Shown here one piece after another: positions 108-16,168 of a stretch of DNA of 46,394 nucleotides (the first letter of the stretch is position 1; every line of letters begins with the position of its first letter). This DNA is from an uncultured Anaerolineae bacterium (GTDB lineage Bacteria; Chloroflexota; Anaerolineae; CG2-30-64-16), in the NCBI GenBank assembly GCA_937124585.1, contig CAKZKT010000082.1, forward strand, positions 1 through 46,394, read 5' to 3'. A program made the position numbers and the translations under genes. A model generated the notes under the pieces. It searched no databases. It worked only from the letters and a program-made list of their open reading frames with translations, and was not told the origin of the DNA.

Positions 108-1949
108 TCAGGCACGATCGTCTCCCCCGTTCTCCTCTGCCAACCAGCCAGGCAGCGGCCGGTCCTGTTCGCGCAGATGGCCTGCGTATTGCAACCGATA
201 TGCGTCCTGGGCATAGTACTGCCCATAACGCTTGCGCGGCAACACATCCAGCAGCCGCTCGGTGATGGTGCGGGCCATCTGCTCGTCGAGGCCCGATTCC
301 AGCTCATAGTCGAAATAGATGGCCAGATCCTGCTCGGGTCGCTCGATGATGCGACGCACACCGAAGTCTCGTGGTCGCAGATGTACCGGCGAATAGCGTT
401 CGAGCACGAACTCGCCCGGCGACGCGGAGTGGATGACATCGCCGTGCGCATAGACGAAATTGACCGTCTCCTGGGCGTCTGCCATCGTCTCGGTGGGAAA
501 GCCGAAGAAGAAAAAGGTGTGATTCCAGATACCGGTCGCTGCGCTCTCTTTCAAGATACGGCTCATCGTCTCGCGGCGCGTGCCTTTCTCCATCAGCGCG
601 ATCATCCGCTCCGAGGCGGTCTCCAGGCCGAAGAGGATCATCCGACAGCCGGCCGCAGCCATGCTCTGCAACAGGTCGGCCGTGATGGCCCGCTCGAAAC
701 GCATGCAGCCGCACCAATGCAGCGGCGCTGCGCCATTGCGGACATGCTCCTGCAGCTGCGCGGACATGATCCTCATGCTGTGCGGGGTCATGGCCTCGTC
801 GGCGAAAAAGATGTGGCGGACGCCATATTTGTGCTGCAGTGCCAGCATCTGCTCGACCACCTGCTCCGGCCGCAATGGCCGAAAGTGACCGCCGCGGCCG
901 TAGCCGACGTTGCAGAAAGCACAATCGCCGTGATAACAGCCGTGCGCCGTGAGCAGCGGCAGCACAGGATAGGGCGAAAGATAGCGACCGACAGGCAGAC
1001 CATCGAAATCAGGCAGAAGCCACGCCGGCCCCGTTCGGCTGACGAGAGGGATGGCCGCTCTGTTTGTACCCGGCCCGGGGCCGGAAGGCGACGCATTCAC
1101 CCGCACGGCCGTCCCATCACGCCAGATGAGGTTCGGCACGGCGGCCAGATCACCGCCGGTCGCCAGTGTCTCGGCCAGGCGCAGGAGCGGCTCCTCGCCT
1201 TCGAACGGGATCGCGCTGTCAATCAGCCGGAACAACGCGGGCACTCTCGGCAGCTGTTCGCGCAGCATGGTGATGTGCGGTCCGCCGACCGTCACGTGAC
1301 AGTCCAGGCCGCTCTGCTTGATCAGATGCGCCAGCGTCATGCCGGCCAGCATCTGCCCCTCGGTGGGGATGGAGATGCCGACGATTGCAGGCTGCTCGCG
1401 CACCAGATCGGGAAGAATGCCGCGGCGGAAAAGGCCCAGGAACATGTTGTGCTGCTCGTCGCGGACGGCCTGCAGCAGGACCCGCGAGCTGTCCACCGGC
1501 GCAGGCGACGTGTAGCCGAGCAGATCGAGCGCGGCCGGGAAAAACGGCAGCGAGGCAACTTCCAGGCTGCGGCTGATGGTCAGAAAGGCCTGCAGGCCGG
1601 TTGGACCATCCAGAAAGGCCGGGCTGCGGATGACGCTGACGGCCTGCTCGACCTGGGCCGCGAGCCGTGGCCCCTCGGTCAGCGCCCACTGTATGCGCTC
1701 GCGCGGCAGTTCCGGGCCGGCAGCCCCGGGCCGGCGGCCGGCTGTGCGTTCGCGCGTCGCATCGCGCAGCCGGCCGAGGCTTTCCTCCAGATAGCTCCGC
1801 GTCAGCGCCCGCTCGAAGACTTCCAGGTTCAGATCGCGCTGGATGACCTCGACCCCGTGCGCCCGCAGATAGGACGAAAGCGCCGGCAGTGCCAGATGCG
1901 GCATTGCCGGCGTCCAATACGGCGGAAAAACCAGGACAACCTTCGCCAT
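108..1949 (-). CDS. B12-binding radical SAM protein
   Basis: Predicted cobalamin-binding radical SAM enzyme of about 613 residues. The N-terminal third begins with the hydrophobic strand and FPPYW motif typical of B12-binding radical SAM proteins, and VTVGGPH (about 220-225) belongs to the same Rossmann-like domain. The iron-sulfur ligands are Cys338, Cys343 and Cys346, in the spaced form CX4CX2C (GCYHGDCAFC) known from several members rather than the classical CX3CX2C. The radical SAM barrel follows, with IFFADEA and GLETASERM motifs. I prefer the ATG at 1949 because MAKVVLVFPP is the usual family beginning; an ATG three codons earlier is possible. It is the last gene downstream of the Opp-type transporter on the same strand, about 90 bases after oppD. 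Members methylate or rearrange varied substrates, so the reaction here cannot be named. Confidence 0.85.
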   Translation of the reverse strand: MAKVVLVFPPYWTPAMPHLALPALSSYLRAHGVEVIQRDLNLEVFERALTRSYLEESLGRLRDATRERTAGRRPGAAGPELPRERIQWALTEGPRLAAQVEQAVSVIRSPAFLDGPTGLQAFLTISRSLEVASLPFFPAALDLLGYTSPAPVDSSRVLLQAVRDEQHNMFLGLFRRGILPDLVREQPAIVGISIPTEGQMLAGMTLAHLIKQSGLDCHVTVGGPHITMLREQLPRVPALFRLIDSAIPFEGEEPLLRLAETLATGGDLAAVPNLIWRDGTAVRVNASPSGPGPGTNRAAIPLVSRTGPAWLLPDFDGLPVGRYLSPYPVLPLLTAHGCYHGDCAFCNVGYGRGGHFRPLRPEQVVEQMLALQHKYGVRHIFFADEAMTPHSMRIMSAQLQEHVRNGAAPLHWCGCMRFERAITADLLQSMAAAGCRMILFGLETASERMIALMEKGTRRETMSRILKESAATGIWNHTFFFFGFPTETMADAQETVNFVYAHGDVIHSASPGEFVLERYSPVHLRPRDFGVRRIIERPEQDLAIYFDYELESGLDEQMARTITERLLDVLPRKRYGQYYAQDAYRLQYAGHLREQDRPLPGWLAEENGGDDRA

Positions 1950-1956
1950 ACCCCTC

Positions 1957-2010
1957 ATCCCCCCACCAACTCACACCCACTCACATTCACCCACACCGCT
2001 ACGTCTCACC
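1957..2010 (-). repeat. Low-complexity GTGAG/GGTG word tract
   Basis: The gap between oppD and the radical SAM gene is made almost wholly of short degenerate words. Read on the minus strand these are GTGAG, GGTGTG, GGGTG and GTTGGTG, ending in a run of six G. It may serve as the ribosome binding region of the radical SAM gene. In style it resembles the word repeats near 23979, 27883 and 35214. Confidence 0.5.
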
Positions 2011-2041: not shown

Positions 2042-3067
2042 CTATCCGTACAACACACATCGCACTTTGTGGCCGGGCTCCACTTCGAGCCAGGGCGGCT
2101 CGGTCTGATCGCATACGCCTCGGATGCGCTGCGTGCAGCGCGGATGGAAGGCGCAGCCTCGCGGCCGTGTGTAGGGATCGGGTACCGTGCCGCGAATGGA
2201 CTCCAGTTGACGCCGTTCTTTGGTTTTCTGGCCCAGCCGCGGAATCGAGCGAAGCAGCGCCTGCGTGTACGGATGCTTGGGATTGTGAAAGATATCGTCC
2301 ACCGGCGCCTCTTCGACGATGCGGCCCATGTACATCACGACGACGTCCTCACACATTTGCGCCACCACGCCCAGGTTGTGCGTGATAAACATGATCGCCA
2401 TGCCGAGATCGTGCTGGAGGCTGCGCATCAGCCGCAGGATCTGCGCCTCGGTGGTCACGTCGAGCGCGGTGGTCGGCTCGTCGGCGATGAGCAGGCTGGG
2501 ATGGCACGAGAGGCCCATGGCGATGACCGCGCGCTGGCGCAGGCCACCCGAAAGCTGGTGGGGATAGGAATCAATGCGCTGCTTGGGCTGCGGGAAGCCG
2601 GCCCGATCCAACATCTCGATCGCTTTGACGCGCGCCTCTTCCTTGCCCACTTTCTGGTGCAGCATGATCGCCTCGCAGATCTGGTTGCCGATCGTGTGCA
2701 CGGGGCTGAGGGAGGCCATCGGCTCCTGCGGCACCAGCGCGATCTCGGCCCCGCGGATGTTGCGCATCTCCGGGCCGGTCGGGTCGAGTTTGGTCAGATC
2801 GATCTCTTCGATCTGGCCGGCGCCGTTGTCGTGGAGCCTCCGATAGAAGGTGATCGTGCCGTCCACGATCCGCCCTGGCCGGGGCACAATGCGCAGGATC
2901 GAGCGCGCCGTGACGCTCTTGCCGCAACCGCTTTCGCCCACCACGCCGATGGTCTGTCCGCGCCAGATGTCGAAGTCCACACCGTCAAGCGCCCGCACCG
3001 TGCCTTCGTCCAGGAAGAAATAGGTTTTCAGGTTCTTGATTGCGATGAGCAGCTGATCTTGTTTCAT
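2042..3067 (-). CDS. oppD: Oligopeptide/dipeptide-type ABC transporter ATP-binding protein (OppD/DppD)
   Basis: One of two ATPase subunits of an Opp/Dpp-type importer, 341 residues, acting on the cytoplasmic face. Walker A is GESGCGKS at 44-51, the ABC signature LSGGL is at 172-176 and Walker B LLIADE is at 192-197. The C-terminal extension with FHPRC and further cysteines is the oligopeptide/dipeptide transporter tail; in some DppD proteins it holds a 4Fe-4S cluster. The ATG is preceded by AGGAG at nine bases. It lies 12 bases downstream of oppC in the same operon. In Chloroflexota and Thermotogota such importers often carry oligosaccharides rather than peptides, so the substrate is open. 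Confidence 0.93.
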   Translation of the reverse strand: MKQDQLLIAIKNLKTYFFLDEGTVRALDGVDFDIWRGQTIGVVGESGCGKSVTARSILRIVPRPGRIVDGTITFYRRLHDNGAGQIEEIDLTKLDPTGPEMRNIRGAEIALVPQEPMASLSPVHTIGNQICEAIMLHQKVGKEEARVKAIEMLDRAGFPQPKQRIDSYPHQLSGGLRQRAVIAMGLSCHPSLLIADEPTTALDVTTEAQILRLMRSLQHDLGMAIMFITHNLGVVAQMCEDVVVMYMGRIVEEAPVDDIFHNPKHPYTQALLRSIPRLGQKTKERRQLESIRGTVPDPYTRPRGCAFHPRCTQRIRGVCDQTEPPWLEVEPGHKVRCVLYG

Positions 3068-3079
3068 GGAAGAGGGCTC

Positions 3080-4261
3080 CTAGCGGGCGTAGGGATCGGC
3101 GGCATCGCGCAGGCCATCGCCGACGAAGTTGAAGGCCAACACCGAGATGACCACGGCGAAGCCCGGCGTGAGCACCCAAGGCGACAGCACCAGCGACCGC
3201 AGGTTCATCGCCTCTTGGAGCAGAACGCCCCAACTGATGGCCGGCGGCCGCAGCCCCAGGCCCAGGAAGCTCAAGCCGGTCTCGGCCAGGATCATGCCGG
3301 GGATGGCGAGCGTCAGCGCGGCAATGATGTAGGAAAGGAACGAAGGCACCATATGCCGAAGGATGATGCGCATCTCGGTCGCACCGTTCAGACGGGCGGC
3401 CAGCACAAAATCTTCCTCGCGCATGGCCAGAAAACGGCCGCGCACCACGCGCGCCATGAAGGTCCAGCCGACCAGCGAAAGGATGACCGTGATGCCGAAG
3501 TAGACGCGAGTGATTGGCCAGTCAACGGGCAACGCCGCGCTGAGCGTCATCCAGAGCGGGATGGTCGGGATGGTGCGGATGAATTCGATGGTGCGCTGCA
3601 CGAGCGTGTCCACCCAGCCGCCAAAGTAGCCGGAAATGCCGCCCAGGATCACGCCGAGCACCAGGCTGATGAACACGCCGACCAGGCCCAGAGAAAGGGA
3701 CAGACGTGCGCCATAAGCGATGCGCGAGAACATATCGCGGCCCAGCCGATCGGCGCCGAAGAGGAAGACGCCCTGCTTCTCGCCAGCCTCCGGGACGCCG
3801 AACAGGTGGATGTTCGTGGGGATCAGACCGAGCAGTTTGTACTCAAAGCCCGGGACGAAGAAACGGATCGTGTAGCGCGTCGTCGTGTCTTCGACATAGC
3901 CGATCTGGAGGGTCTGCGGATCAATCCCGCGCTGCGTCTGATAGATGAAAGGCGCGCGGAAATTGCCCTCGGCATCGCGAATGTGGATTTTCGTCGGCGG
4001 CGCGTACTTATATTGAATGAAGCTGGCATCCGGGTCATAGGGCGCCACGAACTCGCAGAAAATCGCCGTGAAATAGAACAGGATCAGGATAACGGCGCTC
4101 ACCATCGCCATCTTGTGTTTGCGGAAACGCCACCACATCAGCTTCCAGGGCGGCGCCACATACACGTTTTCTCCGCCGCTGAGGATTTCATCGTCTAGGG
4201 CCTGGCTCTCGACCTGATCGGGGGTCGGCGTCTGGTCTGGGATCGGCCTTGCGTCGGTCAT
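3080..4261 (-). CDS. oppC: Opp/Dpp-type ABC transporter permease (OppC)
   Basis: Second membrane subunit of the importer, 393 residues. A first transmembrane segment follows the short cytoplasmic N-terminus (after MWWRFRKHKM), and a long extracytoplasmic loop of about 130 residues separates it from the transport domain. The EAA-type cytoplasmic loop lies near GATEMRIILRHMVPSF. The frame is open further upstream, but the start is the ATG at 4261: it sits two bases after the oppB stop, and the upstream part of the frame would overlap oppB and has no membrane-protein character. The very short gap suggests translational coupling with oppB. Confidence 0.93.
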   Translation of the reverse strand: MTDARPIPDQTPTPDQVESQALDDEILSGGENVYVAPPWKLMWWRFRKHKMAMVSAVILILFYFTAIFCEFVAPYDPDASFIQYKYAPPTKIHIRDAEGNFRAPFIYQTQRGIDPQTLQIGYVEDTTTRYTIRFFVPGFEYKLLGLIPTNIHLFGVPEAGEKQGVFLFGADRLGRDMFSRIAYGARLSLSLGLVGVFISLVLGVILGGISGYFGGWVDTLVQRTIEFIRTIPTIPLWMTLSAALPVDWPITRVYFGITVILSLVGWTFMARVVRGRFLAMREEDFVLAARLNGATEMRIILRHMVPSFLSYIIAALTLAIPGMILAETGLSFLGLGLRPPAISWGVLLQEAMNLRSLVLSPWVLTPGFAVVISVLAFNFVGDGLRDAADPYAR

Positions 4262-4263
4262 CT

Positions 4264-5253
4264 TTATTTCTCCAGTCGAATGCGGGGATCCACCCATGCC
4301 AGCAGGATGTCCGAGATCAGCGTGCCGATGACGGTGAGCACGCTTAAGATCAGCAGGAAACTGCCGGCCAGGTACATGTCCTGCGAAGTCAACGCGCGTA
4401 GCTGCATCGGCCCGGTCGTCTGCAGGCTGAGCACCACAGAAATGAGGGTAGCGCCGGAGATCAGGCTGGCCAGCGACCAACCGACGGTGCTGAAGAAGGG
4501 GTTCAGGGCGATGCGCACGGGGTACTTCCAGATCAGCTTCCACTCGCTGAGGCCTTTGGCGCGCGCCAGTTCGACGTATGGCTTGTTCAGCTCATCGAGG
4601 AGGTTGGCCCGCGTGGTGCGGATGCCGCCGGCAGTGCCTTCCACCGCCAGGATGAGCACCGGAATCCACAGGTGTTTGAGCATGTCTATAACGCGCTCCA
4701 CGCTCCACGGCGCGTTGATATATTCCTGCGAGAAGAGCCCGCCCACGTTCAGGTTGAGCCGGGTCTGCGCGAAATACATGATGATCAGTGCCAGCAGAAA
4801 GCCGGGCACGCCGACGCCGATGAAGCTGATGATGGACATTACGTAGTCGAGAATCGAGTATTGATGCGTGGCAGAATAGACACCGATTGGGATGGCAATG
4901 AACCAACTGACCAGGAGCGAGACGAGCGAAAGCACGACGGTAAGCAAAATCCGCTCGCCGATCAGATCTTTGACCGGTTTCTGCCATTCCATGGACTGGC
5001 CCCAGTCGCCGCGCAGGATGATCCCGCTGATCCATTTGATGTATTGCACGTAGACCGGCTGGCCCAGACCATAACGCTCGCGCAGGTTGTCAATGGCTTC
5101 CTGCTCGATGTTCTCTCCCATCGTGCGCAACCCTGCGACGTAAGACGTCATAAAGTCGCCGGGAGGAAGCTGGATGGCAACAAAGGAGATGATCGAGATC
5201 AAAAATATAGTCGGGATCATCAGCAAAACACGACGCGCGATATACACTAACAT
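4264..5253 (-). CDS. oppB: Opp/Dpp-type ABC transporter permease (OppB)
   Basis: First membrane subunit of the importer, 329 residues. The N-terminus MLVYIARRVLLMIPTI is the classical OppB/DppB start: a short basic stretch, then transmembrane segment 1. The EAA loop is near LARAKGLSEWKLIWKYPVR. The chosen ATG at 5253 has GGAGG six bases upstream; a TTG two codons earlier is in frame but less well placed. The gene follows the binding-protein gene after a 223-base spacer carrying three hairpins, which may set the permeases well below the binding protein in abundance. Confidence 0.93.
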   Translation of the reverse strand: MLVYIARRVLLMIPTIFLISIISFVAIQLPPGDFMTSYVAGLRTMGENIEQEAIDNLRERYGLGQPVYVQYIKWISGIILRGDWGQSMEWQKPVKDLIGERILLTVVLSLVSLLVSWFIAIPIGVYSATHQYSILDYVMSIISFIGVGVPGFLLALIIMYFAQTRLNLNVGGLFSQEYINAPWSVERVIDMLKHLWIPVLILAVEGTAGGIRTTRANLLDELNKPYVELARAKGLSEWKLIWKYPVRIALNPFFSTVGWSLASLISGATLISVVLSLQTTGPMQLRALTSQDMYLAGSFLLILSVLTVIGTLISDILLAWVDPRIRLEK

Positions 5254-5297
5254 GTGCAACCTCCAACAAAGCGGCTCTGAGAATCGCCGGTCACCTA

Positions 5298-5476: not shown

Positions 5477-7558
5477 CTAAGTGGTATGCTTAGCAGGATC
5501 GTCCCAGAAATAGGTCTCGGTGTGGAGCAAGTGCTCGTCGGCGGTCGTGTCGTCAATCGGCATGCCCGGCAGGTAGTTCTTGAAGCCGTTCTTGACGATG
5601 ACCAGCGCCGGCTGCTCGCCCAAGATGCCGATGTACGGCAGCTCTTCGGCCCAAATGTCCAGGATCTTCTTGAACGCCTCGTTCTGCTTCTGAGGATCCG
5701 GTTCGACCGCCACTTCCTCGTCCCAGATCTTCCAGATTGTGCGGATCCAGTGCCCCTGCGGCGGCTCCTCGGCGTTCGGGTTATTGGGATCCATGTAGTA
5801 CAGACCCCAGGCAGGCGCCCACGGCCGGTCAATCATGGTGGCGCGGAAGATCGGCGCTTCGGACGCCAGCGGCACCACCGTGCGGTCGCCGCCCCACCAG
5901 GCCGCCTCGATTTCGTTGCTCTCGTAGTGTTGGGTGTACAGCGCCCGCTCGACATACTTGTAGGTGGCCTTGATGCCGATCTTCGCCAGGTCCTTGCTCA
6001 CCAGGAGGGCGGCGTCCTCGGTGGGAGTGCCGGTCTGATCGGTACCCTCGATGACGAAGGAGATCGGCGTTGTGCCATCCTTGTGCAACCGGATGCCATC
6101 GGAGCCCTTCTTGCTGTAGCCCGCTTCGTCCAACAGCTTGTTGGCCAGATCCGGATTGTACTCCAGATACGCGTTGGATAGCTTCTCATAGTAGTTGGGT
6201 GACATCGGCAACGGGCTGTACTGCCGCGGCTTCAGCAGGCCGTTGAAGACCAACTCGTTGATCTGGTTGCGATTGATGGCGTGCGAAATGGCGATGCGCA
6301 CCTTGCGCTCGTTGAAGAACTCACGCAGCAGCTTGTTCTTGGTGGTCAGGTTGAGCTGGATGGCCACGTGCCCGGCGCTGATCCCCAGGAGCACCTTGTA
6401 GTCGCCCTTCTGCTCTGCCTGCTTGTAGAGCGTATAGTTGGCGACGCTCATGTGGCGGTTCTGGAAGTCAATTTCGCCGTTGGTCACCCACAGGTTGAGC
6501 ACCTCGGCGTTCTCGAACAGGCGGTGCGTGATTTTGTCAATGTACGGGAGCTGGTTGCCTTCCTTGTCCACCGCCCAGAAGTACGGATTGCGCTCCATGA
6601 TGAACAGCTCTTTGGAGAGCGCGCCCTTGGCCAGCCAGCCGCCGAGGAAAGGTCGCTCGGGGTTGGCATACCAGTACTGGGCGAAGTCCAAATAGTAGCG
6701 ATCCCAGCTGTCGAAGCCGCGTTTCTTGACATCTTCCGCCAGCTTAGCCTTGTCCGAGGTGGTGTCCTCGTGCAGCTCCTTCATGTAATGCGACGGCGTG
6801 TTCGGCCCCGCCACAGAGCGGGCGATGCCGTACAGGAACAACGGCTTGGGATCATCGTAGGTGAACTTGAGGGTATACTTGTCCGGCACTTCCAGTTTGA
6901 CGATTTTCTTGGTCTTGGCGCTGCGCCACTGGCTGGGGATCGCCGGGTTCAGCTTCTTGTTCTGCAGCTCGTACTGATACCACCACATCGTGTCGTCGCT
7001 GGTGTATTCCTTGCCGTCTGACCACTTCATGCCCTCGCGCAGCTTCAGGGTCCATGTCTTAGCGTCCGGAGTGACCTGCCACGACTCGATGATACGCGGC
7101 TGCAAATTCAGGCTTTTGTCATACCACACCCAGAAGCGATCCACGAACTTCGTCGGCCCCCAGCGATCGGAGACGCCACTGAAGGCGCGGCGCAGGGTGC
7201 CACCGTACTTGCCCACGCTCTCCTGCACCGGGAAGACGCACGGCTTCTTGGGCAGGCGCGCATCCACCGGCGGCAGCTTGCCGGCTTTCACCAGCTCGGC
7301 CAGCATGGGGGCCTCTTTGTACTGGCTGACGGGCGCAGCGGGCGCCTTGGTCGGCTCAGGCGCCTTCGTTGCTGCCGGTGCAGCCGGGGCCTTGGTCGGT
7401 TCCGGAGCCTTGGTGGGCTCAACCTTGGCCGCCGGAACCGCAGTTGGCTCGGGCGCCTTGGTCGGCGTGGGCTGCGCGCCGCAGGCCGCGGCTGCCGTCC
7501 CCACCGCTGTCAGCGCCGACAGTCGCAAGAACTCTCGACGATTGATCAACTTCTTCAT
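5477..7558 (-). CDS. Family 5 extracellular solute-binding lipoprotein
   Basis: Substrate-binding protein of the Opp-type importer, 693 residues, anchored outside the membrane. The N-terminus has a twin-arginine-like signal (NRREFLRL, Arg7-Arg8) and a lipobox ending at Cys26 (AAAAC). A flexible linker of repeated AlaProGluProThrLys units (about 28-75) follows. The mature domain has family 5 features: IIESWQVTPDAKTWTLKLR, the WSDGK motif and ISHAINRNQI. It is longer than the usual 500-600 residues because of the linker. An AAGGAGG box lies 8 bases before the ATG. The ligand may be a peptide or an oligosaccharide; the nearby sugar-type sensor favours the latter, weakly. Confidence 0.93.
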   Translation of the reverse strand: MKKLINRREFLRLSALTAVGTAAAACGAQPTPTKAPEPTAVPAAKVEPTKAPEPTKAPAAPAATKAPEPTKAPAAPVSQYKEAPMLAELVKAGKLPPVDARLPKKPCVFPVQESVGKYGGTLRRAFSGVSDRWGPTKFVDRFWVWYDKSLNLQPRIIESWQVTPDAKTWTLKLREGMKWSDGKEYTSDDTMWWYQYELQNKKLNPAIPSQWRSAKTKKIVKLEVPDKYTLKFTYDDPKPLFLYGIARSVAGPNTPSHYMKELHEDTTSDKAKLAEDVKKRGFDSWDRYYLDFAQYWYANPERPFLGGWLAKGALSKELFIMERNPYFWAVDKEGNQLPYIDKITHRLFENAEVLNLWVTNGEIDFQNRHMSVANYTLYKQAEQKGDYKVLLGISAGHVAIQLNLTTKNKLLREFFNERKVRIAISHAINRNQINELVFNGLLKPRQYSPLPMSPNYYEKLSNAYLEYNPDLANKLLDEAGYSKKGSDGIRLHKDGTTPISFVIEGTDQTGTPTEDAALLVSKDLAKIGIKATYKYVERALYTQHYESNEIEAAWWGGDRTVVPLASEAPIFRATMIDRPWAPAWGLYYMDPNNPNAEEPPQGHWIRTIWKIWDEEVAVEPDPQKQNEAFKKILDIWAEELPYIGILGEQPALVIVKNGFKNYLPGMPIDDTTADEHLLHTETYFWDDPAKHTT

Positions 7559-7888
7559 GACCCTTGCCTCCTTGTAGAGTGTGAGAAGATCGTCTCTGAC
7601 TCATGCCTATCACGGTCGCTTGCGCGACGCGACCGGTCCACCGATGAGGATTTGCTTTCCTGGCCTGACAGCCAGACAGGCCGATCAAGATCTACCCGCA
7701 ATTGCGCATCCCTGGATGTCGTTTGGCTCCTTTCCTCCTGTCCTGAAGATTGCCGTACTCGCGTGCCAGGCATCCCCGGCCCAGCCGGCGGAGCCGGGGC
7801 GGGCTTGCAGAGTTGCTGGCACGTGGCGACCCGCCGGGGCTATGGCGCCGGATGCGGCATGGATCTCTGTCTCGCGGCGACAGCCGCA
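7559..7888 (-). other. 330-base spacer between oppF and the binding-protein gene
   Basis: No gene is supported here. The spacer holds the structured repeat at 7762-7824 and two small inverted repeats: GGTCGC 7614-7619 with GCGACC 7629-7634, and GGCCTG 7662-7667 with CAGGCC 7677-7682. The 5' end of the binding-protein message must lie in it, but I see no convincing -35/-10 pair. Confidence 0.6.
7762..7824. repeat. REP-like structured repeat, copy A
   Basis: The first 52 bases (7762-7813) match 37424-37475 at 49 positions. The core CCCCGGC...GCCGGGG is an inverted repeat, and the ends GTGCCAG and CTGGCAC are inverted too, so the element can fold as a closed stem with an inner hairpin. It is intergenic in both places. 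Confidence 0.75.
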
Positions 7889-8926
7889 TCACACCATACC
7901 CATGACGCCGATCAGTTTGAGCTCCTCGGCGCGATGACAACTGACGAAATGGTCGGGCAAGATCTCCCGCAGCACGGGCTCCTCGCTCCGACAGCGATCA
8001 ATACAATAACGACAGCGCGGATGAAAATAGCATCCGCTCGGCGGATGCGCCGGATCGGCCACCTCGCCGGTGAGTGGCACCGCCTCGGTCCGAATGCGCG
8101 GATCGGGCTTCGGCACCGATGAGAGCAACGCCTCGGTATATGGATGACGAGGGTTCGTGAAGAGCTCGGTGGTCTCGGCGCTTTCCACCAGTTTGCCCAC
8201 GTACATCACCGCCACCCGATCGCTGATGTGCTCGACCACGCTCAAGTCGTGCGAGATGAACAGGTACGTGAGGCCGAAGTCCTTTTGCAGGTTCTGCAGC
8301 AAGTTCAAAATCTGCGCCTGGACCGAGACATCCAGTGCCGATACCGGCTCATCGCAGACCACCAGCTGCGGATGGAGCGCCAACGCGCGCGCCACGCCGA
8401 TACGCTGACGCTGGCCGCCGCTGAACGCATGAGGATAGCGGCTCATATACTCTGACCGCAACCCCACCACCTTCAGCAGCTCAGCAACCCGATCCTTCAA
8501 TTCCTCGCCTTTGGCAATGCCGTGATTGCGCAGCGGCTCGCCGACGATTTCGAGCAGGGTCATGCGAGGATTGAGCGACGAATAGGGATCCTGAAAGATC
8601 AACTGCATGTTTTTGCGCAGCTGACGCAGCTCTGCCTCCGTCTTGGTCGCCACATCCACACGACCCAGCTGGCGATCGTTGAACCAAATTTGGCCGGCCG
8701 TGGGCTCATAGGCGCGCAAAATCAGCCGGCCGATGGTCGTCTTGCCGCACCCGCTCTCGCCGACCAATCCCAGGGTCTCCCCCTCCCGGATAAAAAAGTC
8801 AACACCGTCCACGGCTTTTACGGCGCCGACCTGGCGTGCAAACAGGAAACCACGACGAATGGGAAAGTGCTTTTTGAGGCCTACCACTTCCAGGAGTTTG
8901 GGGCGAGCGGAGGTCTGTTCTGGCAT
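7889..8926 (-). CDS. oppF: Opp/Dpp-type ABC transporter ATP-binding protein (OppF)
   Basis: Second ATPase subunit, about 345 residues. It carries Walker A GESGCGKT, the Q-loop region [13 protein letters not shown], signature SGGQRQR, Walker B LVVCDEP and the C-terminal oligopeptide-transporter tail with CYFHPRC and further cysteines. OppF proteins typically begin a few residues before [11 protein letters not shown], as here. I chose the ATG at 8926 because AGGA stands eight bases before it; an ATG at 8941 and a TTG at 8947 are also in frame. It follows the receiver gene almost directly and is split from the rest of the transporter by the 330-base spacer, an unusual order (F, binding protein, B, C, D). 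Confidence 0.92.
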
Positions 8927-8943
8927 AGAAGAGGTCCTCATTG

Positions 8944-9306
8944 TCAAATGTGTATGCCGGCGTGCCTGAGCACCGCCACAAAATCATCGTACATAACCGA
9001 TTTCGGCAAATATCCGGCCACTTCTTCATCCCAGTCCCCCGGCGGTTCGTCTAAACCGGAATAAATCACGACCGGGATGCGGCAGGTATCGGCCTCAGCT
9101 CGGAGTCCATGCAACATCTTTTTGCCGGCAGCGCCGGGCAGATCACAATCCAGGATAATCAGAGCAGGGTGGGTGCGGTGCGCCAGAGCCAGCACATCGC
9201 TGCCCGCGCCAGTGCTGACGGTGTCGAAACCGCTCTCTTCCGCATAACGCTGAAGCAGATAGGTGATGTTTGGATCGTTGGCTGCGATCATGATTGTCGG
9301 GGGCAT
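8944..9306 (-). CDS. Stand-alone response regulator receiver domain
   Basis: CheY-like single-domain protein of 120 residues without an output domain. The phosphoacceptor is Asp53 in ILDCDLP, the conserved hydroxyl residue is Ser83 and the conserved lysine is Lys102 in YLPKS. The acidic pocket is partly changed: AANDP has one Asp (Asp11) where most receivers have two acidic residues. A GGGAGGAG box lies seven bases before the ATG at 9306; starts further upstream are in frame but lack such a site. Between the sensor kinase and oppF, it may be a phosphorelay partner or phosphate sink for the large hybrid kinase. Confidence 0.85.
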
Positions 9307-9390
9307 CTGGCGCTCCTCCCTGAGACCCAAACGTTGCACCTTGTCCGACGCGGCGCCCAATCAGCGCCCAGCCTAGAGCAGAGGTAGCTT

Positions 9391-9402
9391 CATGTTAACA
9401 TG
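9391..9402. promoter_or_regulatory. Perfect 12-bp palindrome, possible operator
   Basis: CATGTTAACATG is fully self-complementary and AT-rich in a GC-rich setting. It sits in the 133-base gap between the sensor gene and the receiver-oppF genes. It could be an operator for a dimeric regulator, perhaps the AraC-type sensor itself. No -35/-10 pair is clear beside it. Confidence 0.4.
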
Positions 9403-9439
9403 TTTTCATCGGCCTGTCTTCTGTCTTTGGGACATTCAA

Positions 9440-12400
9440 TCAAGGTTTTGGAGCAAGATTCCGCCGCCGGTAGTCGCGCGGGGTCATGCCGACTTCCCGC
9501 CGAAAGGCATCGGTGAAGTAGTTGCTGCTGGAGAAGCCGACCTCGATTGCGATCTCGGTGATGCTCATGTCGCTGCTGTCCAGCAGGTGCTTGGCCTTCT
9601 TGATGCGATAGCGATTCAGGTAGGTGATCGGCGACAGCCCCACCTCTTGCTGGAAACAACGCGTCAAATGGCGCGCGCTGACGCCGACATGCGCGGCCAT
9701 CTCCTCGCGCGAGATAGGTTCCGCGTAATGCTCGTGGATGTACGCCATCGCCCGCCGCACCGTGCGCTGCGCGTCGCTGCCCAGGCGCTTGTGCCGCGCC
9801 AGAACCTGTTGCACCTGCGCCAGCGTCTCCTCAGCGGTGAACACCCCTTTTTCCAGCACGGCAGCCACCCCGCGGTTGAGCTGCGCCATCTCCCGTTCGT
9901 TCAGCGCCTGGGCGGTCAACACGATCACCGGCACGGTGCGCAGCCGCTCATCGGCCTGCATGGCCGCCAGCACCCCCAGCCCATCCAGCTGTGGCATCAT
10001 CAGATCGAGCAGCACCAGGGCCGGCGCGGTCCGGCGCATGACCTCTAGCGCCGCCCGGCCATCGGCGGCATGCACGATGTCGGCATCGGGCAACGCCGAG
10101 CGCACCACTCGCTCGTGCAACGCCCGGATATGCGGGTCGTCGTCCACGATCAGGATGGTGCACCGACCGTCGTGGCTTTCTGCGCTCAATCCGTGGCGCT
10201 GCAGAGCGTGGGTCAGCGTCTCGACACCCAGAGGCTTCGCCAGATGGTCCCAGGCCAGCACGCCGCCCATCTCGGCACCCTGCAACGAGTAGAACAGGAT
10301 CGGGATATCCTGAGTCGCCGGATGGTTCTTGAGAAGCTCGATCACCTGCCAGCCCTGCGCCGAGACCGGCTGACAGTCGAGGATGATCGCGCCCGGAGAC
10401 AGCTTCAGCAACTGCGACAGCCAATCCTTCTCTACGCTGGCATCGAGCGTCTCGACCAGGAAGCCTTCTCCTTCCAGGTAGTCGCCCAGCATCCGACCGC
10501 TGCTGCTCTGTGGAGTGGTGATTAGCAGCACCACAGACGCCGACACGCCGGACGCCGCCCGCGCAGCCCCCGGATCGGATGCCTCCAGCGTCGGCAGGGT
10601 GAAATAAAACGTCGAGCCGCCGTCTTCGACACCGCTGGAGCGCACGCCGATGGTTCCGCCGTGAAGCTCCACCAGCTCTCGGCAGATCGCAAGCCCGATG
10701 CCCAGGCCGCCATAGCCCCGCGATGCAGTGCGCTCCGACTGACGAAACTCGTCGAAGATCGCCTCCTGTTCGGCCAACGGCACTCCCAAACCAGTATCGC
10801 TGACCGAGATGGTCAGGCCGTGCTCGTCAGCGGTCACGGCCAGCGCCACATGCCCCTGGGTGGTGAACTTGACGGCATTCGTGATGAGATTGAGGATCAC
10901 CTGGCGCAGCCGCGTGGCATCTCCCTTCACGCGCGGCAACGACTCCGGGATGTCGGCGCGCCATGCCAGCCCCTTGCTCTGCGCCATCTGTTCGCCCACC
11001 AGCGCCACCGCTTTGAGCAGCGGCACCGGGTCGAGCGGTTCTATCACCAATCGCAGCTGCCCCATCTGGCTGCGCGCCAGGTCGAGCACATCGCGCAGCA
11101 GGCTGTCCAATTGCTGCGCGCTGACGTGGATGCGCGCCAGATCCTGACGGTACGGCTCGGGCAATGGCGGTCGCCGGTCGCCGGTGCGCTCTCGCAGCAA
11201 CATCTCGCTCAAACCGACCAGCAGCACCAGCGGGGTGCGCAATTCGTGGCTCACCACCGACAGAAAGTGGCTTTTCTGACGGTTGGCCTCCTCGGCCAGC
11301 GCGCGCTCGGCCTGCGCCACCCGCTCCGCCTCGATCGCCTTGCGATAGAGCTCCACGTTCCGCTCGGCCAGCAGCGCAGCCTTCAGGGTCGCGCTGATCT
11401 CCTCGCGCAGCACCTCGTAGATTTCGCCCGCCGACCGCTGCTCGAAGATGAGCAGCCCCAGCTGCTCATCCTGGAAATGCAGCGGCAAGACGAGCCGGGC
11501 AAAGGACGTTTCGCCCGCGCCGGCACCGGAGAAAGACGCCAGGGCTGTGCCCATCGCCAGGTCGCGCGTGCGGAGGCGACGGCCCTCCACGGCCGGATCA
11601 TGATGTCCCTGGGCATCCAATGCCAGCAGGACGCGACACCACTCCTGCGGCCGGGCAGGGTCTTCATACAGAGCAAGCTGACACTGCGCGATGCCCAGCT
11701 GCGGCAGCTTCTCGGCCAGGACATCCATCAGATCGGACGTACGCGTGGTGGTCGCCAGGACGTGGCCGATCCGGCGCAGGCGCTGCGCCTGTTGCTGGGC
11801 CTGCCACTCCTGATAGCGGTCGCCGCGCTGGCCTTGCTCGCTGATCAGGATACGGGCCTGATGCCACAGATCCTCGGCGCGTCGGCACAGCTGCGGCTGA
11901 TGGCGCAGCGTCGGCAGCAGGCGACGGCGCAACTCGGAGACGGCTTCTTGCCAGGGCGCGGCATCGCCGCCCTGGCCGAGGGCCACACGCAGCAAGCCAT
12001 CCAAAGTGGGCAGGAAATCACCTCCAGCATCGCCCTGCAGATCGGCCATGAACGCATCGTACAGCCGGATGGCCGCGTCGCGGGCAGGTTCACTGCCGGC
12101 CAACACGGCCGCCAGCGCGTCCAGGCAGCTCGCCCGCACCGATGCTGAGCCGGCTGTGGTCGGCCCGGCCGCCTCGTCTGCAACGGGGGCCAAAGCCGGC
12201 GCAAAACAGCCACACGACCGCCGCACGATCAAATTCGCCGGCAACAGCACCTGTTCAGGCACAGGCCGTCCGGCCAGCATCTCCAGCAACAGCTCGGCGG
12301 CCTTCTGCCCGCGCTCGTACATACGCCAGGGCACGGTGGTCAGCGGCGGTGTCACAGCGCGGCTCAGCGGCACATCGTTGAACCCGACGACCGCCACATC

Positions 12401-13105
12401 CTCCGGCACCCGAATGCCGCGCGCCTGCAAGAACTCCATCGCTTGCACGGCGAGATCGTCGTTGACACACACCACGGCATCGAAGTCCACGCGGCGCTCG
12501 TCGAGCAGCAGGCGCATGCTGGTATAGCCGCCCGGATCATACCATTTGTGGTTCGGCGAAACCAGCGCAGGATCGAAGGCCAGACCGTAGTCACGCAGCG
12601 CCTCGACATAGGCGCGATAGCGCTCCTCGGCGTCGCGGTGGCCGACCGGCCCGCGCACGAACGCCAGGCGCCGACGGCCGTGCACCTCGATGAGGTGCAC
12701 GACGGCATCGCGCATCCCCTGATAGCTATCGAGGAGCACACCGGGGATGCCTTCGAGCGCCAGGCCGATGCTCACGATCGGCAGCGGACGATAGCGGGCG
12801 CAAAAGCGCGGCATGCATTCCGGGCCCACGTCGCTGGCCAATGAAGAGCCCCAAACGATCAGGCCGTCGAGCCGGTTGACATCAATCAGGTCGTAAACCA
12901 GGTTGCCCTGGCGGCTGAAGTCGCCCGGATCCAGCAGATTGCCGCCGGCAAAACACAACAAATTGCCACCATACGCCCGCACAGTGTCCGCGATGCCCGG
13001 CCACAGGCTGGAGCGCGATTCGCCCGACACGTGATCCATGATCACGCCGATGGTCAGGCCGGATCGGCCCCGCACATGGACATGCGGCATAGAGATGTGG
13101 CTCAT
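9440..13105 (-). CDS. LacI-like sugar-sensing hybrid histidine kinase with two receivers and AraC DNA-binding domain
   Basis: A complete two-component system in one chain of about 1221 residues, with no signal peptide or transmembrane segment, so probably cytoplasmic. Order: LacI-type periplasmic-binding-like domain without its HTH (about 15-300, ending at IVRRSCGCF); helical region; GAF-like domain (about 440-570); coiled coil; dimerisation domain with phosphoacceptor His620 (SHELRTP); ATPase domain with N-box LNLITNAVKF, G1 DTGLG and G2 GGLGIG; receiver 1 (855-970, Asp910); receiver 2 (983-1102, acidic triad DDD, Asp1034, Lys1086); AraC HTH (1117-1214). Receiver 1 lacks the N-terminal acidic pair. 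The start at 13105 is a judgement; in-frame ATGs at 13162 and 13090 are alternatives. The ligand-binding domain resembles sugar sensors, so it probably controls the adjacent transporter and the divergent operon. Confidence 0.9.
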   Translation of the reverse strand: MSHISMPHVHVRGRSGLTIGVIMDHVSGESRSSLWPGIADTVRAYGGNLLCFAGGNLLDPGDFSRQGNLVYDLIDVNRLDGLIVWGSSLASDVGPECMPRFCARYRPLPIVSIGLALEGIPGVLLDSYQGMRDAVVHLIEVHGRRRLAFVRGPVGHRDAEERYRAYVEALRDYGLAFDPALVSPNHKWYDPGGYTSMRLLLDERRVDFDAVVCVNDDLAVQAMEFLQARGIRVPEDVAVVGFNDVPLSRAVTPPLTTVPWRMYERGQKAAELLLEMLAGRPVPEQVLLPANLIVRRSCGCFAPALAPVADEAAGPTTAGSASVRASCLDALAAVLAGSEPARDAAIRLYDAFMADLQGDAGGDFLPTLDGLLRVALGQGGDAAPWQEAVSELRRRLLPTLRHQPQLCRRAEDLWHQARILISEQGQRGDRYQEWQAQQQAQRLRRIGHVLATTTRTSDLMDVLAEKLPQLGIAQCQLALYEDPARPQEWCRVLLALDAQGHHDPAVEGRRLRTRDLAMGTALASFSGAGAGETSFARLVLPLHFQDEQLGLLIFEQRSAGEIYEVLREEISATLKAALLAERNVELYRKAIEAERVAQAERALAEEANRQKSHFLSVVSHELRTPLVLLVGLSEMLLRERTGDRRPPLPEPYRQDLARIHVSAQQLDSLLRDVLDLARSQMGQLRLVIEPLDPVPLLKAVALVGEQMAQSKGLAWRADIPESLPRVKGDATRLRQVILNLITNAVKFTTQGHVALAVTADEHGLTISVSDTGLGVPLAEQEAIFDEFRQSERTASRGYGGLGIGLAICRELVELHGGTIGVRSSGVEDGGSTFYFTLPTLEASDPGAARAASGVSASVVLLITTPQSSSGRMLGDYLEGEGFLVETLDASVEKDWLSQLLKLSPGAIILDCQPVSAQGWQVIELLKNHPATQDIPILFYSLQGAEMGGVLAWDHLAKPLGVETLTHALQRHGLSAESHDGRCTILIVDDDPHIRALHERVVRSALPDADIVHAADGRAALEVMRRTAPALVLLDLMMPQLDGLGVLAAMQADERLRTVPVIVLTAQALNEREMAQLNRGVAAVLEKGVFTAEETLAQVQQVLARHKRLGSDAQRTVRRAMAYIHEHYAEPISREEMAAHVGVSARHLTRCFQQEVGLSPITYLNRYRIKKAKHLLDSSDMSITEIAIEVGFSSSNYFTDAFRREVGMTPRDYRRRNLAPKP

Positions 13106-13213
13106 GCTGTCGTCTCGGAAGGCAATGGCTGTATCGGGAAGTTTCCTGAAAGCGTCGCGCATACACGGGCAACGAGTTTGACCCGGCAGGCTGATCCAGA
13201 TATCATAAAACCC

Positions 13214-13222
13214 ATTATACCA
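13214..13222 (-). promoter_or_regulatory. Extended -10 promoter of the sensor gene
   Basis: On the minus strand the sequence reads TGGTATAAT, a perfect extended -10 (TG, one base, TATAAT). No good -35 stands 17 bases upstream, as is normal for extended -10 promoters. Transcription would start near 13206, leaving a leader of about 100 bases before the ATG at 13105. Confidence 0.65.
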
Positions 13223-13322
13223 CAAATTACACCGAGACGACATGCAGACCGGGCGAGGTTGCAGCAGACCTCGCTCCAGGCCGCGGCACGCCGTCTTGTG
13301 ACAACACGAGGGGGGCCATGCC

Positions 13323-14360
13323 ATGAAACCATTGCGCTTTGCGGTGCTCGGCACCGGTTTCTGGGCCAGATTCCAGATCGCGGCCTGGTTTGAGGTCGGC
13401 GGCGTGGAGCTGGTGGCGCTTTACAACCGCACTGTGGCCAAAGCCGAGGCCTTGGCCCAGCAGTACGGCGTGCCCAGGGTCTACGGCGACGCCGAAGAGC
13501 TCTTCCGCAACGAGCAGCTCGACTTCGTGGACATCATCACCGAGGTGCCCGGCCACGAGCCGCTGACGCTGCTGGCGGCCCAGTATCGCGTGCCGGTCAT
13601 CTGCCAGAAGCCGATGGCGGCCAGCTACGAGTCGGCTTGCCGCATGGTGCGCGCCTGTCAGCAGGCAGACGTGCCGTTCATGATCCACGAGAACTTCCGC
13701 TGGCAGACCACCCTGCGGGCACTCAAAGGCCTCCTCGACGAAGGCGTCATCGGCCAGCCGTTCCGGGCGCGGCTTTCCTTCGTGTTCTACAACCCCAAAG
13801 TCTTCGACAATCAGCCCATGCTGAAGCAGTTGCCCCGCCTGGCGCTGACCGACGTGGGCAGCCATCTGCTCGATCTGGCGCGCTTCTACTTCGGCGAGCC
13901 GGAGTCGCTCTACTGTACCGTCCACCGCACCCGCGACGACATCGCCGGCGAAGATGTCGCCACGGTCGTGCTGAAGATCGGCCCGGTGACCTGCACGTGT
14001 GAGATGAGCTACTCCAGCCGCACCGAATCGGTGCATTTCCCACAGACGCTGGTCGCCATCGAGGGCCATAATGGATCCATCGAAGTCGCGCCGGACTATC
14101 GCATCCGCATCACCACCGACGCGGGCACGCTGATCCGCCGCTACCCGCCGCCGCGCTATGCGTGGGCCGACCCGATGTACGACATCGTCCATGCCAGCAT
14201 CGTGCCGTGTAACGCCCATTTGCTGGAGGCGCTCCGCACGGGCCGACCGGCCGAAACCTCCGGTGAGGACAATCTGAAGACCATGCGGCTGGTCTATCGC
14301 GCTTACGAATCTGCCGAACGCAATGTCGTCATCCCGATCGACGAAGATGATTGCCCGTGA
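13323..14360 (+). CDS. Gfo/Idh/MocA family oxidoreductase
   Basis: NAD(P)-dependent sugar or inositol dehydrogenase-like protein of 345 residues. The N-terminal Rossmann fold starts FAVLGTGFWARFQI, and the family motif EVPGHEP (normally EKP-like further on, here QKPMA at about 98-102) holds the catalytic lysine. MIHENFRWQ and the later DVGSHLLDLARF (Asp and His of the active-site helix) are typical of the C-terminal domain. A GAGGGGGG box precedes the ATG. It leads a plus-strand cluster and faces the sensor gene, with both starts inside a 217-base gap, so coordinated control by the sensor is plausible. The sugar substrate is unknown. Confidence 0.92.
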   Translation: MKPLRFAVLGTGFWARFQIAAWFEVGGVELVALYNRTVAKAEALAQQYGVPRVYGDAEELFRNEQLDFVDIITEVPGHEPLTLLAAQYRVPVICQKPMAASYESACRMVRACQQADVPFMIHENFRWQTTLRALKGLLDEGVIGQPFRARLSFVFYNPKVFDNQPMLKQLPRLALTDVGSHLLDLARFYFGEPESLYCTVHRTRDDIAGEDVATVVLKIGPVTCTCEMSYSSRTESVHFPQTLVAIEGHNGSIEVAPDYRIRITTDAGTLIRRYPPPRYAWADPMYDIVHASIVPCNAHLLEALRTGRPAETSGEDNLKTMRLVYRAYESAERNVVIPIDEDDCP

Positions 14361-14893: not shown

Positions 14894-16168
14894 ATGCACA
14901 TCAAGCTCGCCTACGGCAAGACCGGCCTGCCGCTCACATTGCCCGACTCGCTCGCCGTGACGGTCGTCGAACCGACCTTCGTGGCCGGCCTGCCCGATCC
15001 GGTCGCCGCGCTGCGCCAGGCGTTGGCCGCACCGATCGCCGCGGCGCCGCTGGCCGAAGTCGTCCGGCCCGGCCAACGGGTCGGCGTCGTGTTCAGCGAC
15101 ATCACCCGCCCTACCCCCAACCGCCTGATCCTGCCGGTCGTCCTGGCCGAATTGGCGCGCGTGCCCGACGTGGAGATCATCCTGTTCAACGCGCTGGGCA
15201 CGCATCGGCCGAACACCGACGCCGAGCTCCGCGAAATGCTGGGCGACGATATCGTCGCCCAATATCGCATCGTACAGAACAACGCGTTCGACCAGGCCAC
15301 GCAGGTGCGCGTCGGCGTCACCCGCCGCGGCCACGAGGTGTGGCTGAACGCCGAGCTGATGGCGTGCGATCTGAAGGTGCTGACCGGCTTCATTGAACCG
15401 CACTTCTTCGCCGGCTTTTCCGGCGGCGGCAAAGCGATCATGCCGGGCATGGCCGGGCTGCGCACGGTGCTGGGCAACCACGACGCCGGCATGATCGCCG
15501 ATCCGGCTGCCACCTGGGGCATCACCCACGGCAACCCGATCTGGGAGGAAATCCACGAGGTGGCCCATCAGGCCGGCCCTGTTTTCCTCGTCAACGTGAC
15601 GCTGAACCGCAACAAAGAGATCACGGCCGTCTTCGCCGGCGACCTGGATCAGGCGCACGCGGCCGGCTGTGCGTTCGTGAAACACGCCGCCATGGTTCCG
15701 GTCCCGCAGCCGTTCGACATCGTCATCACCACCAACTCCGGCCATCCCCTCGACCTGAACCTGTATCAGGCCGTCAAAGGGATGAGCGCGGCGGCCCAGG
15801 TGGTGCGGCCGGGCGGGGCCATCATCATCGCGGCGAGCTGCTGGGACGGCATCCCGGAGCACGGCCGCTACGGCCGGCTGCTGCGGGAGGCGACCAGTCC
15901 CCAGGCGTTGCTCGACCGCATTTGCGCGCCGGGCTTCCTGGAGCAGGATCAGTGGCAAGCCCAGATCCAGGCGCAGATCCAGCTCAAGGCCGATGTCTAC
16001 GTGCACAGCGATCACCTGACCGATGAACAGATCACGGCCGCGCTGCTCCGGCCATGCCATCGGATCGAAGAGACCATCGAGGCGCTGCTGCGCCGCTACG
16101 GCCCGGCCGCCCGCATCTGCGTCCTGCCCGAGGGGCCGCAGACCATCCCATATCTCGCCCAAAGCTGA
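14894..16168 (+). CDS. larA: LarA-type nickel-pincer lactate racemase family protein
   Basis: Homologue of nickel-dependent lactate racemase, 424 residues, cytoplasmic. Functional residues of Lactiplantibacillus LarA can be placed by motif: Asp69 and Arg72 (SDITRP; Asp72/Arg75), His104 (GTHRP; His108), His170 (EPHFF; His174), Lys180 (SGGGKAIMPG; Lys184, which binds the pincer cofactor) and His196 (GNHDAG; His200). All are present, so the cofactor can probably be bound. Many LarA homologues act on other 2-hydroxy acids, including sugar acids, which would suit the neighbouring Gfo/Idh/MocA oxidoreductase. The cofactor genes larB, larC and larE are not in the window. An AGGAGA box stands upstream of the ATG. 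Confidence 0.9.
   Translation: MHIKLAYGKTGLPLTLPDSLAVTVVEPTFVAGLPDPVAALRQALAAPIAAAPLAEVVRPGQRVGVVFSDITRPTPNRLILPVVLAELARVPDVEIILFNALGTHRPNTDAELREMLGDDIVAQYRIVQNNAFDQATQVRVGVTRRGHEVWLNAELMACDLKVLTGFIEPHFFAGFSGGGKAIMPGMAGLRTVLGNHDAGMIADPAATWGITHGNPIWEEIHEVAHQAGPVFLVNVTLNRNKEITAVFAGDLDQAHAAGCAFVKHAAMVPVPQPFDIVITTNSGHPLDLNLYQAVKGMSAAAQVVRPGGAIIIAASCWDGIPEHGRYGRLLREATSPQALLDRICAPGFLEQDQWQAQIQAQIQLKADVYVHSDHLTDEQITAALLRPCHRIEETIEALLRRYGPAARICVLPEGPQTIPYLAQS

Follow-up and report, generated by a model that had tools for sequence, protein, structure and literature searches.

Passages of PMC3878776 describe hybrid two-component systems (HTCSs) as unique to the Bacteroidetes and as always having a periplasmic sensor; the motifs of Bacteroides HTCSs are given there as direct repeats, with an average distance of 21 bp between tandem sites. 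Excerpts of PMC11253607 place an S/CHIP motif in the HTCS receiver that adjoins the DNA-binding domain. In the CuaDSR system, according to parts of PMC5663094, a sugar-binding protein, a kinase and an AraC regulator are thought to control a neighbouring sugar ATP-binding cassette (ABC) transporter. Here, we analysed a contig of 46,394 nucleotides from an uncultured Anaerolineae bacterium of the phylum Chloroflexota (GenBank assembly GCA_937124585.1, contig CAKZKT010000082.1; hereafter the window, meaning this whole stretch of DNA), which carries between positions 9440 and 13105 a gene for a hybrid sensor kinase and transcription factor. Based on sequence comparison and structure modelling, this protein is probably a cytoplasmic counterpart of the Bacteroidota HTCS that induces its own sugar importer.

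Domain architecture, solubility and spread of the sensor protein

The minus-strand reading frame runs from an ATG at 13105 to a stop at 9440-9442, and its product comprises, from the N- to the C-terminus, a LacI-type effector domain without a helix-turn-helix (HTH), a helical linker, a GAF domain, a HisKA/HATPase kinase core, receiver 1, receiver 2 and an AraC HTH. Pfam searches matched Peripla_BP_3 (residues 137-298, 2.3e-31), HisKA (610-681, 1.4e-16), HATPase_c (728-839, 5.7e-28), Response_reg twice (1.4e-23) and HTH_18 (1136-1215, 2.1e-29), the last of which assigns the C-terminal domain to the AraC-type HTHs. In an AlphaFold2 model of residues 1-610 (26 alignment rows; predicted local distance difference test, pLDDT, 84.8; predicted template-modelling score, pTM, 0.78), residues 16-300 superpose on CcpA 2jcg (VIA-align Z 27.5, 2.3 Å over 268 residues) and on the reconstructed LacI ancestor 9nt5 (Z 27.1, 35% identity), which together with the Pfam match identifies a LacI-type periplasmic-binding fold. 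The GAF domain of the window protein lies below Pfam detection; residues 440-590 modelled alone (pLDDT 89.9) gave a GAF fold (Foldseek 9.2e-5; VIA-align Z 12.2, 3.0 Å over 132 residues to 3trc), and a long helix spanning residues 561-609 precedes the kinase.

An N-terminal LacI HTH is absent, the chain beginning at the core fold, so that the protein is not a full LacI family regulator. An 83-codon in-frame extension upstream of 13105 was considered as a hidden LacI HTH and rejected, its composition being not coding-like and its translation reading unlike an HTH; in several relatives, an in-frame stop lies directly upstream of the matching start. Core positions of the LacI family, which we take to line the LacI pocket, are kept at Arg162 (25 of 26), Asn215 (18 of 26) and Asp216 (25 of 26).

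Membrane segments were looked for with a simple hydropathy measure, the 19-residue Kyte-Doolittle mean. By this measure the window protein has neither a signal peptide nor a membrane helix: its highest value (1.71) falls within the LacI domain and its first 60 residues peak at 0.62. Likewise, no membrane segment was found in 27 aligned proteins (the window protein and 26 relatives, of which L024 is truncated), where the mean never exceeded 1.75 and the peaks fall inside soluble domains. As the LacI-type sensor has no HTH and the chain no membrane segment, these profiles support a soluble protein with cytoplasmic ligand sensing.

His620, the ATP-binding boxes and the pocket of receiver 2 are kept in essentially all 27 proteins. 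In receiver 2, Asp989, Asp1034 and Lys1086 are invariant and position 988 is Asp in 25 proteins and Glu in two, a pattern that places it among the active receivers. In receiver 1, the acid pair is absent from all 27, with Asp910 kept in 25 and Lys957 in all, and the pattern of an active receiver is lacking. Since receiver 1 has no acidic pocket, receiver 2 is predicted from these residues to be the only receiver of the chain that should accept phosphate. A gene for a stand-alone receiver follows the sensor gene in 18 of the 29 relatives with room for it (17 and L009), seven further loci ending too soon to show it; its phospho-site column, among 18 aligned sequences, reads Glu in nine, Asp in seven and Gln in two. 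The 11 relatives without this gene belong mainly to a clade whose LacI N-terminus differs.

One scan of 84,980 species genomes returned 43 loci, 36 of which (L009-L044) carry the chain, while the other seven match single parts only. All 36 have Chloroflexota titles, and the domain order is the same in each as far as its contig reaches; in L024 the LacI part is lost from the frame. The linker-GAF module was found in 36 of 400 genomes of the window's phylum, its own included (E ≤ 1e-8), and in 6 of 299, 2 of 199 and 2 of 201 genomes of other phyla (E ≤ 1e-5). In none of nine stretches fetched from other phyla does the chain also contain an AraC domain; a separate receiver protein comes next in L107, L108, L110, L111 and L113 from those phyla. 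A survey of outputs covered 20 stretches of the window's phylum picked for variety: the full chain is present in eight, including L097 without a detected linker; L091 has the chain without receiver 1; kinase outputs with or without a receiver occur in L093-L096 and L101; and the LacI-linker-GAF part is joined to GGDEF in L087 and L092 (Pfam) and to an HD domain in L099. The GGDEF and HD fusions suggest an intracellular sugar control of cyclic di-GMP.

The exit of the LacI domain is marked by an invariant RxSCGC motif, which may have a structural, metal or redox role. Of 75 fused LacI chains, 74 have a CGC-type motif and the lone exception reads SCKC; none of the 14 HTH-bearing LacI proteins of the window's genome has one. 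Two of four short LacI frames also carry it, both being pieces of split fused genes.

An earlier, sequence-only reading had proposed a LacI-like sensor, a kinase, two receivers and an AraC domain in one soluble chain. The missing LacI HTH, the lack of a membrane segment or signal peptide and the presence of the DNA-binding domain in the sensor chain are all borne out, and the domains it listed are confirmed, with the amendment that receiver 1 is degenerate. Its assignment of residues 1-310 as the ligand module appears right as far as the modelled fold shows, and on the phylogenetic spread that it raised, the relatives show that the architecture is not a one-off. The linker and GAF domain, the degeneracy of receiver 1, the downstream receiver gene and the conserved repeat described below did not figure in it.

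Operator candidate, promoter candidate and genomic neighbours

The gap between the sensor and receiver genes contains a direct repeat, TGYYCCAAAA-N11-TGTCCCAAA, with a 21-bp phase (9425-9455), which reaches partly into the last codons of the sensor gene; the consensus recurring in the gaps of relatives is TGYYCCAAAA-N11-TGTYCCAAAA. When phases 11-35 were scanned over ten gaps, phase 21 summed to 163, followed by phase 22 (147) and phase 20 (143). A repeat model of 66 columns was built from eight sites, each left out in turn, with 11 further loci as external cases, and the gap site ranked first in the expected register in 11 of these 19 loci (about 11,000-93,000 positions each). These were the window (92,658 positions), L009, L011, L012, L013 and L015 in the leave-one-out scan and L019, L026, L037, L040 and L041 among the external loci. 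The gap site of L014 came second, that locus having another strong site; that of L022 came first in the wrong register and was not counted; and those of the external loci L017, L034, L023 and L018 ranked second to seventh. Extension of the repeat to the receiver-less clade was tried on 17 loci (some with a receiver gene) and is not claimed, as L025, L032 and L038 had first-ranking sites downstream and the rest ranked 2nd to 963rd.

Within its own genome, the window's site is the only repeat match with fewer than two mismatches. A match with two mismatches (C119) was considered as a second operator and taken as chance: it lies across the terminus of a coding frame, at an inverted repeat, and three matches were likewise obtained with the reversed control (at most three mismatches). 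Across 60 genomes (its own and 59 relatives), two matches had at most one mismatch, both in a sensor-receiver gap, and the reversed control gave one; the second of the two (G005) is identical in its letters to the L012 gap site.

The repeat lies upstream of and abuts the -35 box of a promoter candidate for the receiver-transporter operon. At 15 of 19 sites, a weak -35 stands at a constant distance after the repeat and a -10-like hexamer 17 bp beyond it, a tally that is partly circular because the repeat model covered part of the hexamer; a sigma-70 consensus scan of the minus strand from 7500 to 13400 returned no promoter. In L009, L014 and L016, a second copy of the repeat faces a divergent operon, the examined genes of which encode GFO/IDH/MocA oxidoreductases (L009, L016), xylose-isomerase-like proteins (L009, L014), a GH3 glycoside hydrolase (L009) and an FGGY kinase (L014). 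In all three loci, the divergent operon starts with a gene for a protein of some 490 aa that Pfam did not match at 1e-6 (L009:6403-7866, L014:6366-7841 and L016:6393-7859, minus strand).

An Opp-type operon lies directly after the receiver gene in seven of the 36 relative loci, with transporter genes 47-90% identical. Five Opp-type transporter genes follow the receiver gene in the window, L009, L011, L014 and L015; in L012, L022 and L023 such a set starts after the receiver gene and the contig then ends. Other relatives have as neighbours a CUT2-like sugar ABC set (L017), GH5 (L034), SBP_bac_8 (L035), GH16 with CBM11 (L043), GH3 and FGGY kinase genes and a URO-D-like protein (L019).

Taken together, the repeat at 9425-9455 is the best operator candidate, and it points at the receiver/Opp-type ABC operon and not at the LarA side. 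The sequence-only reading had placed the sensor gene between two flanking operons, as is indeed the case, and had regarded both as plausible targets. The conserved synteny and operator-like repeat argue for the transporter operon. The oxidoreductase-LarA operon was dropped, as the 36 related loci yielded no window-like GFO, LarA or M3 gene (E ≤ 1e-10) and a second copy of the operator did not turn up in the window. The site near 9391-9402 at which the same reading had sought DNA binding more likely forms the -10 region of the promoter of the transporter operon; this palindrome was rejected as the best operator candidate since it overlaps the -10 and is not the conserved element in relatives.

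Table 1. Features of the sensor gene, its downstream gap and the receiver-transporter operon in the window
Feature	Coordinates	Strand	Remarks
Soluble hybrid sensor kinase/transcription factor (P0001)	9440..13105	minus	1,221 aa
LacI-type effector-binding domain, residues 16-300	12206..13060	minus	no HTH; Pfam; AlphaFold2 and VIA-align Z 27.5
RxSCGC motif at LacI-domain exit, residues 295-300	12206..12223	minus	26/26 aligned
Helical linker, residues about 320-452	11750..12148	minus	AlphaFold2 model
GAF-fold domain, residues about 456-590	11336..11740	minus	AlphaFold2 pLDDT 89.9; Foldseek, VIA-align
HisKA-HATPase kinase core	10580..11290	minus	phospho-acceptor His620 (27/27); Pfam
Receiver 1, degenerate	10196..10537	minus	acid pair absent
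Receiver 2, intact	9791..10165	minus	Asp/Glu988, Asp989, Asp1034, Lys1086; Pfam and alignment
AraC-type HTH (HTH_18), residues 1112-1218	9452..9772	minus	Pfam
Operator candidate	9425..9455	minus	TGCTCCAAAA (9446-9455), 11-bp spacer, TGTCCCAAAG (9425-9434)
Promoter candidate, receiver-transporter operon	9392..9420	minus	-35 AAGACA (9415-9420), 17-bp spacer, -10 TAACAT (9392-9397)
Stand-alone degenerate receiver	8944..9306	minus	120 aa; directly downstream of sensor gene
Opp/Dpp-type ABC ATPase	7889..8947	minus	
Family-5 solute-binding protein	5477..7558	minus	nearest solved chains 5ipw, SPH1118 (pectin), 6epy (alpha-galactoside)
OppB-type permease	4264..5259	minus	
OppC-type permease	3080..4543	minus	start uncertain; overlaps previous frame
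Second Opp/Dpp-type ABC ATPase	2042..3067	minus	

Further genes of these neighbourhoods were recorded. After its transporter genes, the window encodes a B12-binding radical SAM protein (111-1958, minus strand) that scores below every NCBIfam cut-off; L011 has one in the equivalent position (54% across the part that remains before the locus ends). In L034 (13305-15812) and L041 (4022-6541), a gene a short way downstream of the receiver gene encodes a protein of some 840 aa to which Pfam gave no match at 1e-6. On the other side of the sensor gene, a nickel-dependent lactate racemase, LarA (14894-16168, plus strand; above the NCBIfam cut-off), is flanked by a GFO/IDH/MocA oxidoreductase and an M3 oligoendopeptidase, the frame of which overlaps the LarA end.

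Proposed mechanism and alternative readings

We propose that a sugar or its breakdown product, once inside the cell, would bind residues 16-300, and that the ligand-induced change would pass through the linker, the GAF domain and the long helix (561-609) to the kinase. His620 would be phosphorylated and would hand its phosphate to Asp1034 of receiver 2, which may free or pair the AraC domain, allowing it to bind the tandem half-sites next to the -35 box and to activate the receiver-transporter operon. The imported sugar would thereby induce its own importer, and receiver 1 and the separate receiver might act as phosphate-independent docking or brake modules.

Several points weigh against this reading. 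The eight model sites of the repeat were chosen via a consensus drawn by eye and the relatives are not independent; the repeat is not shown by L024 (rank 29) and L032 (rank 92), nor by most loci of the clade without a receiver gene. The remaining points concern the cargo of the transporter, the direction of control (activator or repressor), which is itself inferred, and the ligand pocket, which is variable among the relatives.

The transporter may carry peptides or metal chelates, with an incidental linkage to the LacI-type sensor, and this we consider unlikely, though it is the likeliest of the rival readings. Its binding protein falls in Pfam family SBP_bac_5, members of which often carry peptides; the best NCBIfam names for the transporter genes are oligopeptide/nickel (Opp/Nik) systems, all below cut-off; the top solved match of the binding protein, 5ipw (1.9e-104), is named an oligopeptide-binding protein; and an M3 oligopeptidase is encoded nearby. 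However, the match SPH1118 (2.4e-68) binds pectin and an oligogalacturonide according to parts of PMC9314435, 6epy (5.3e-30) is named an alpha-galactoside-binding protein, and the M3 gene is not conserved beside relatives.

It is somewhat less probable that the protein represses the transporter operon without ligand rather than activating it. Repression sits poorly with a repeat upstream of the -35 box and with the box itself, AAGACA being a poor -35, as is typical of activator-dependent promoters. In its favour, excerpts of PMC11253607 describe repression of target genes by at least one Bacteroides HTCS with a deviating S/CHIP-DK contact, and the window protein is without the S/C-H part.

A LacI-type domain that no longer binds a small ligand and serves as a dimerisation or partner platform, the signal coming from the GAF domain or a partner protein, appears improbable. 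Many of the columns that may form the pocket are variable within the family, and GAF, a common small-molecule fold, adjoins the kinase; but the variation is also expected if different sugars are bound, the core positions Arg162, Asn215 and Asp216 are kept, and sugar genes lie beside many relatives. Finally, we give little credence to what would chiefly be a one-component regulator, in which ligand binding suffices to drive the AraC domain and the kinase and receivers have a modulatory role: Escherichia coli XylR, reportedly described by Ni et al. in 2013, is said to combine a ligand domain of the LacI/GalR type with an AraC domain, and receiver 1 and the lone receiver are degenerate, but the phospho-acceptor histidine, ATP-binding boxes and receiver 2 pocket are kept in essentially all 27 proteins.

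Should the soluble, sugar-induced phosphorelay be correct, hybrid two-component control would extend beyond the Bacteroidota and membrane sensors to an abundant, mostly uncultured phylum, with an intracellular instead of an external cue. It then becomes a testable question why a full phosphorelay is kept although direct action on DNA would be open to a LacI domain. The operator candidate is defined sharply enough to be tried in a gel shift, purification and structure solution should be easier for the soluble chain than for a membrane HTCS, and the conserved degenerate receiver next door is a putative regulatory component. A wider proposal is offered tentatively, and we lean against it: that the Chloroflexota hold a membrane-free class of hybrid two-component systems in which intracellular sugar sets a one-chain phospho-switch, the gate being two dedicated receivers that cannot be phosphorylated, one within the chain and the other encoded next door behind the same operator, and that the LacI-linker-GAF part with its RxSCGC motif is a general plug-in that, across several phyla, also drives kinases, diguanylate cyclases and proteins with an HD domain.

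Comparison with known systems

The closest known sensor-plus-AraC pairing is XylR, the AraC part of which was matched by phmmer and which shares the LacI-type ligand domain joined to an AraC HTH; to our knowledge, XylR has no GAF, kinase or receiver. The LacI-linker-GAF histidine kinases and GGDEF or HD proteins of Chloroflexota and other phyla have the same input and SCGC-type motif, but the output attached to it is a GGDEF domain, an HD domain or a kinase, the last often accompanied by a receiver encoded separately. In CuaDSR, by contrast, the solute-binding protein, the membrane kinase with its external loop and the regulator are three separate proteins, according to the same parts of PMC5663094. 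Full-text literature searches, which reached few subscription papers, showed no description of a hybrid kinase that combines a LacI sensor with an AraC domain.

Among known systems, the Bacteroidota HTCSs, BT1754 above all, offer the closest working model. As in these systems, the sensor, histidine kinase, receiver and AraC domain form one chain, and the conserved 21-bp phase of the direct repeat at the window promoter agrees with the average given in passages of PMC3878776; the HTCS fructose sensor BT1754 likewise uses a sensor of the periplasmic-binding-protein type. Unlike these systems, the window protein has a LacI-type cytoplasmic sensor with linker and GAF domain in place of a periplasmic sensor and membrane helix (hydropathy, 27 of 27 proteins), is accompanied by extra degenerate receivers in the chain and in trans, and belongs to a family found in the Chloroflexota, outside the phylum to which HTCSs are said to be restricted. 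At the S/CHIP position it reads RTVP, and none of the 27 proteins has His at position 2, so that the S/C-H half of the contact is absent. The protein would work like an HTCS and, matching these systems in chain order and repeat phase but not in membrane sensor, phylum or S/C-H contact, is best filed as a soluble variant of them rather than as a member.

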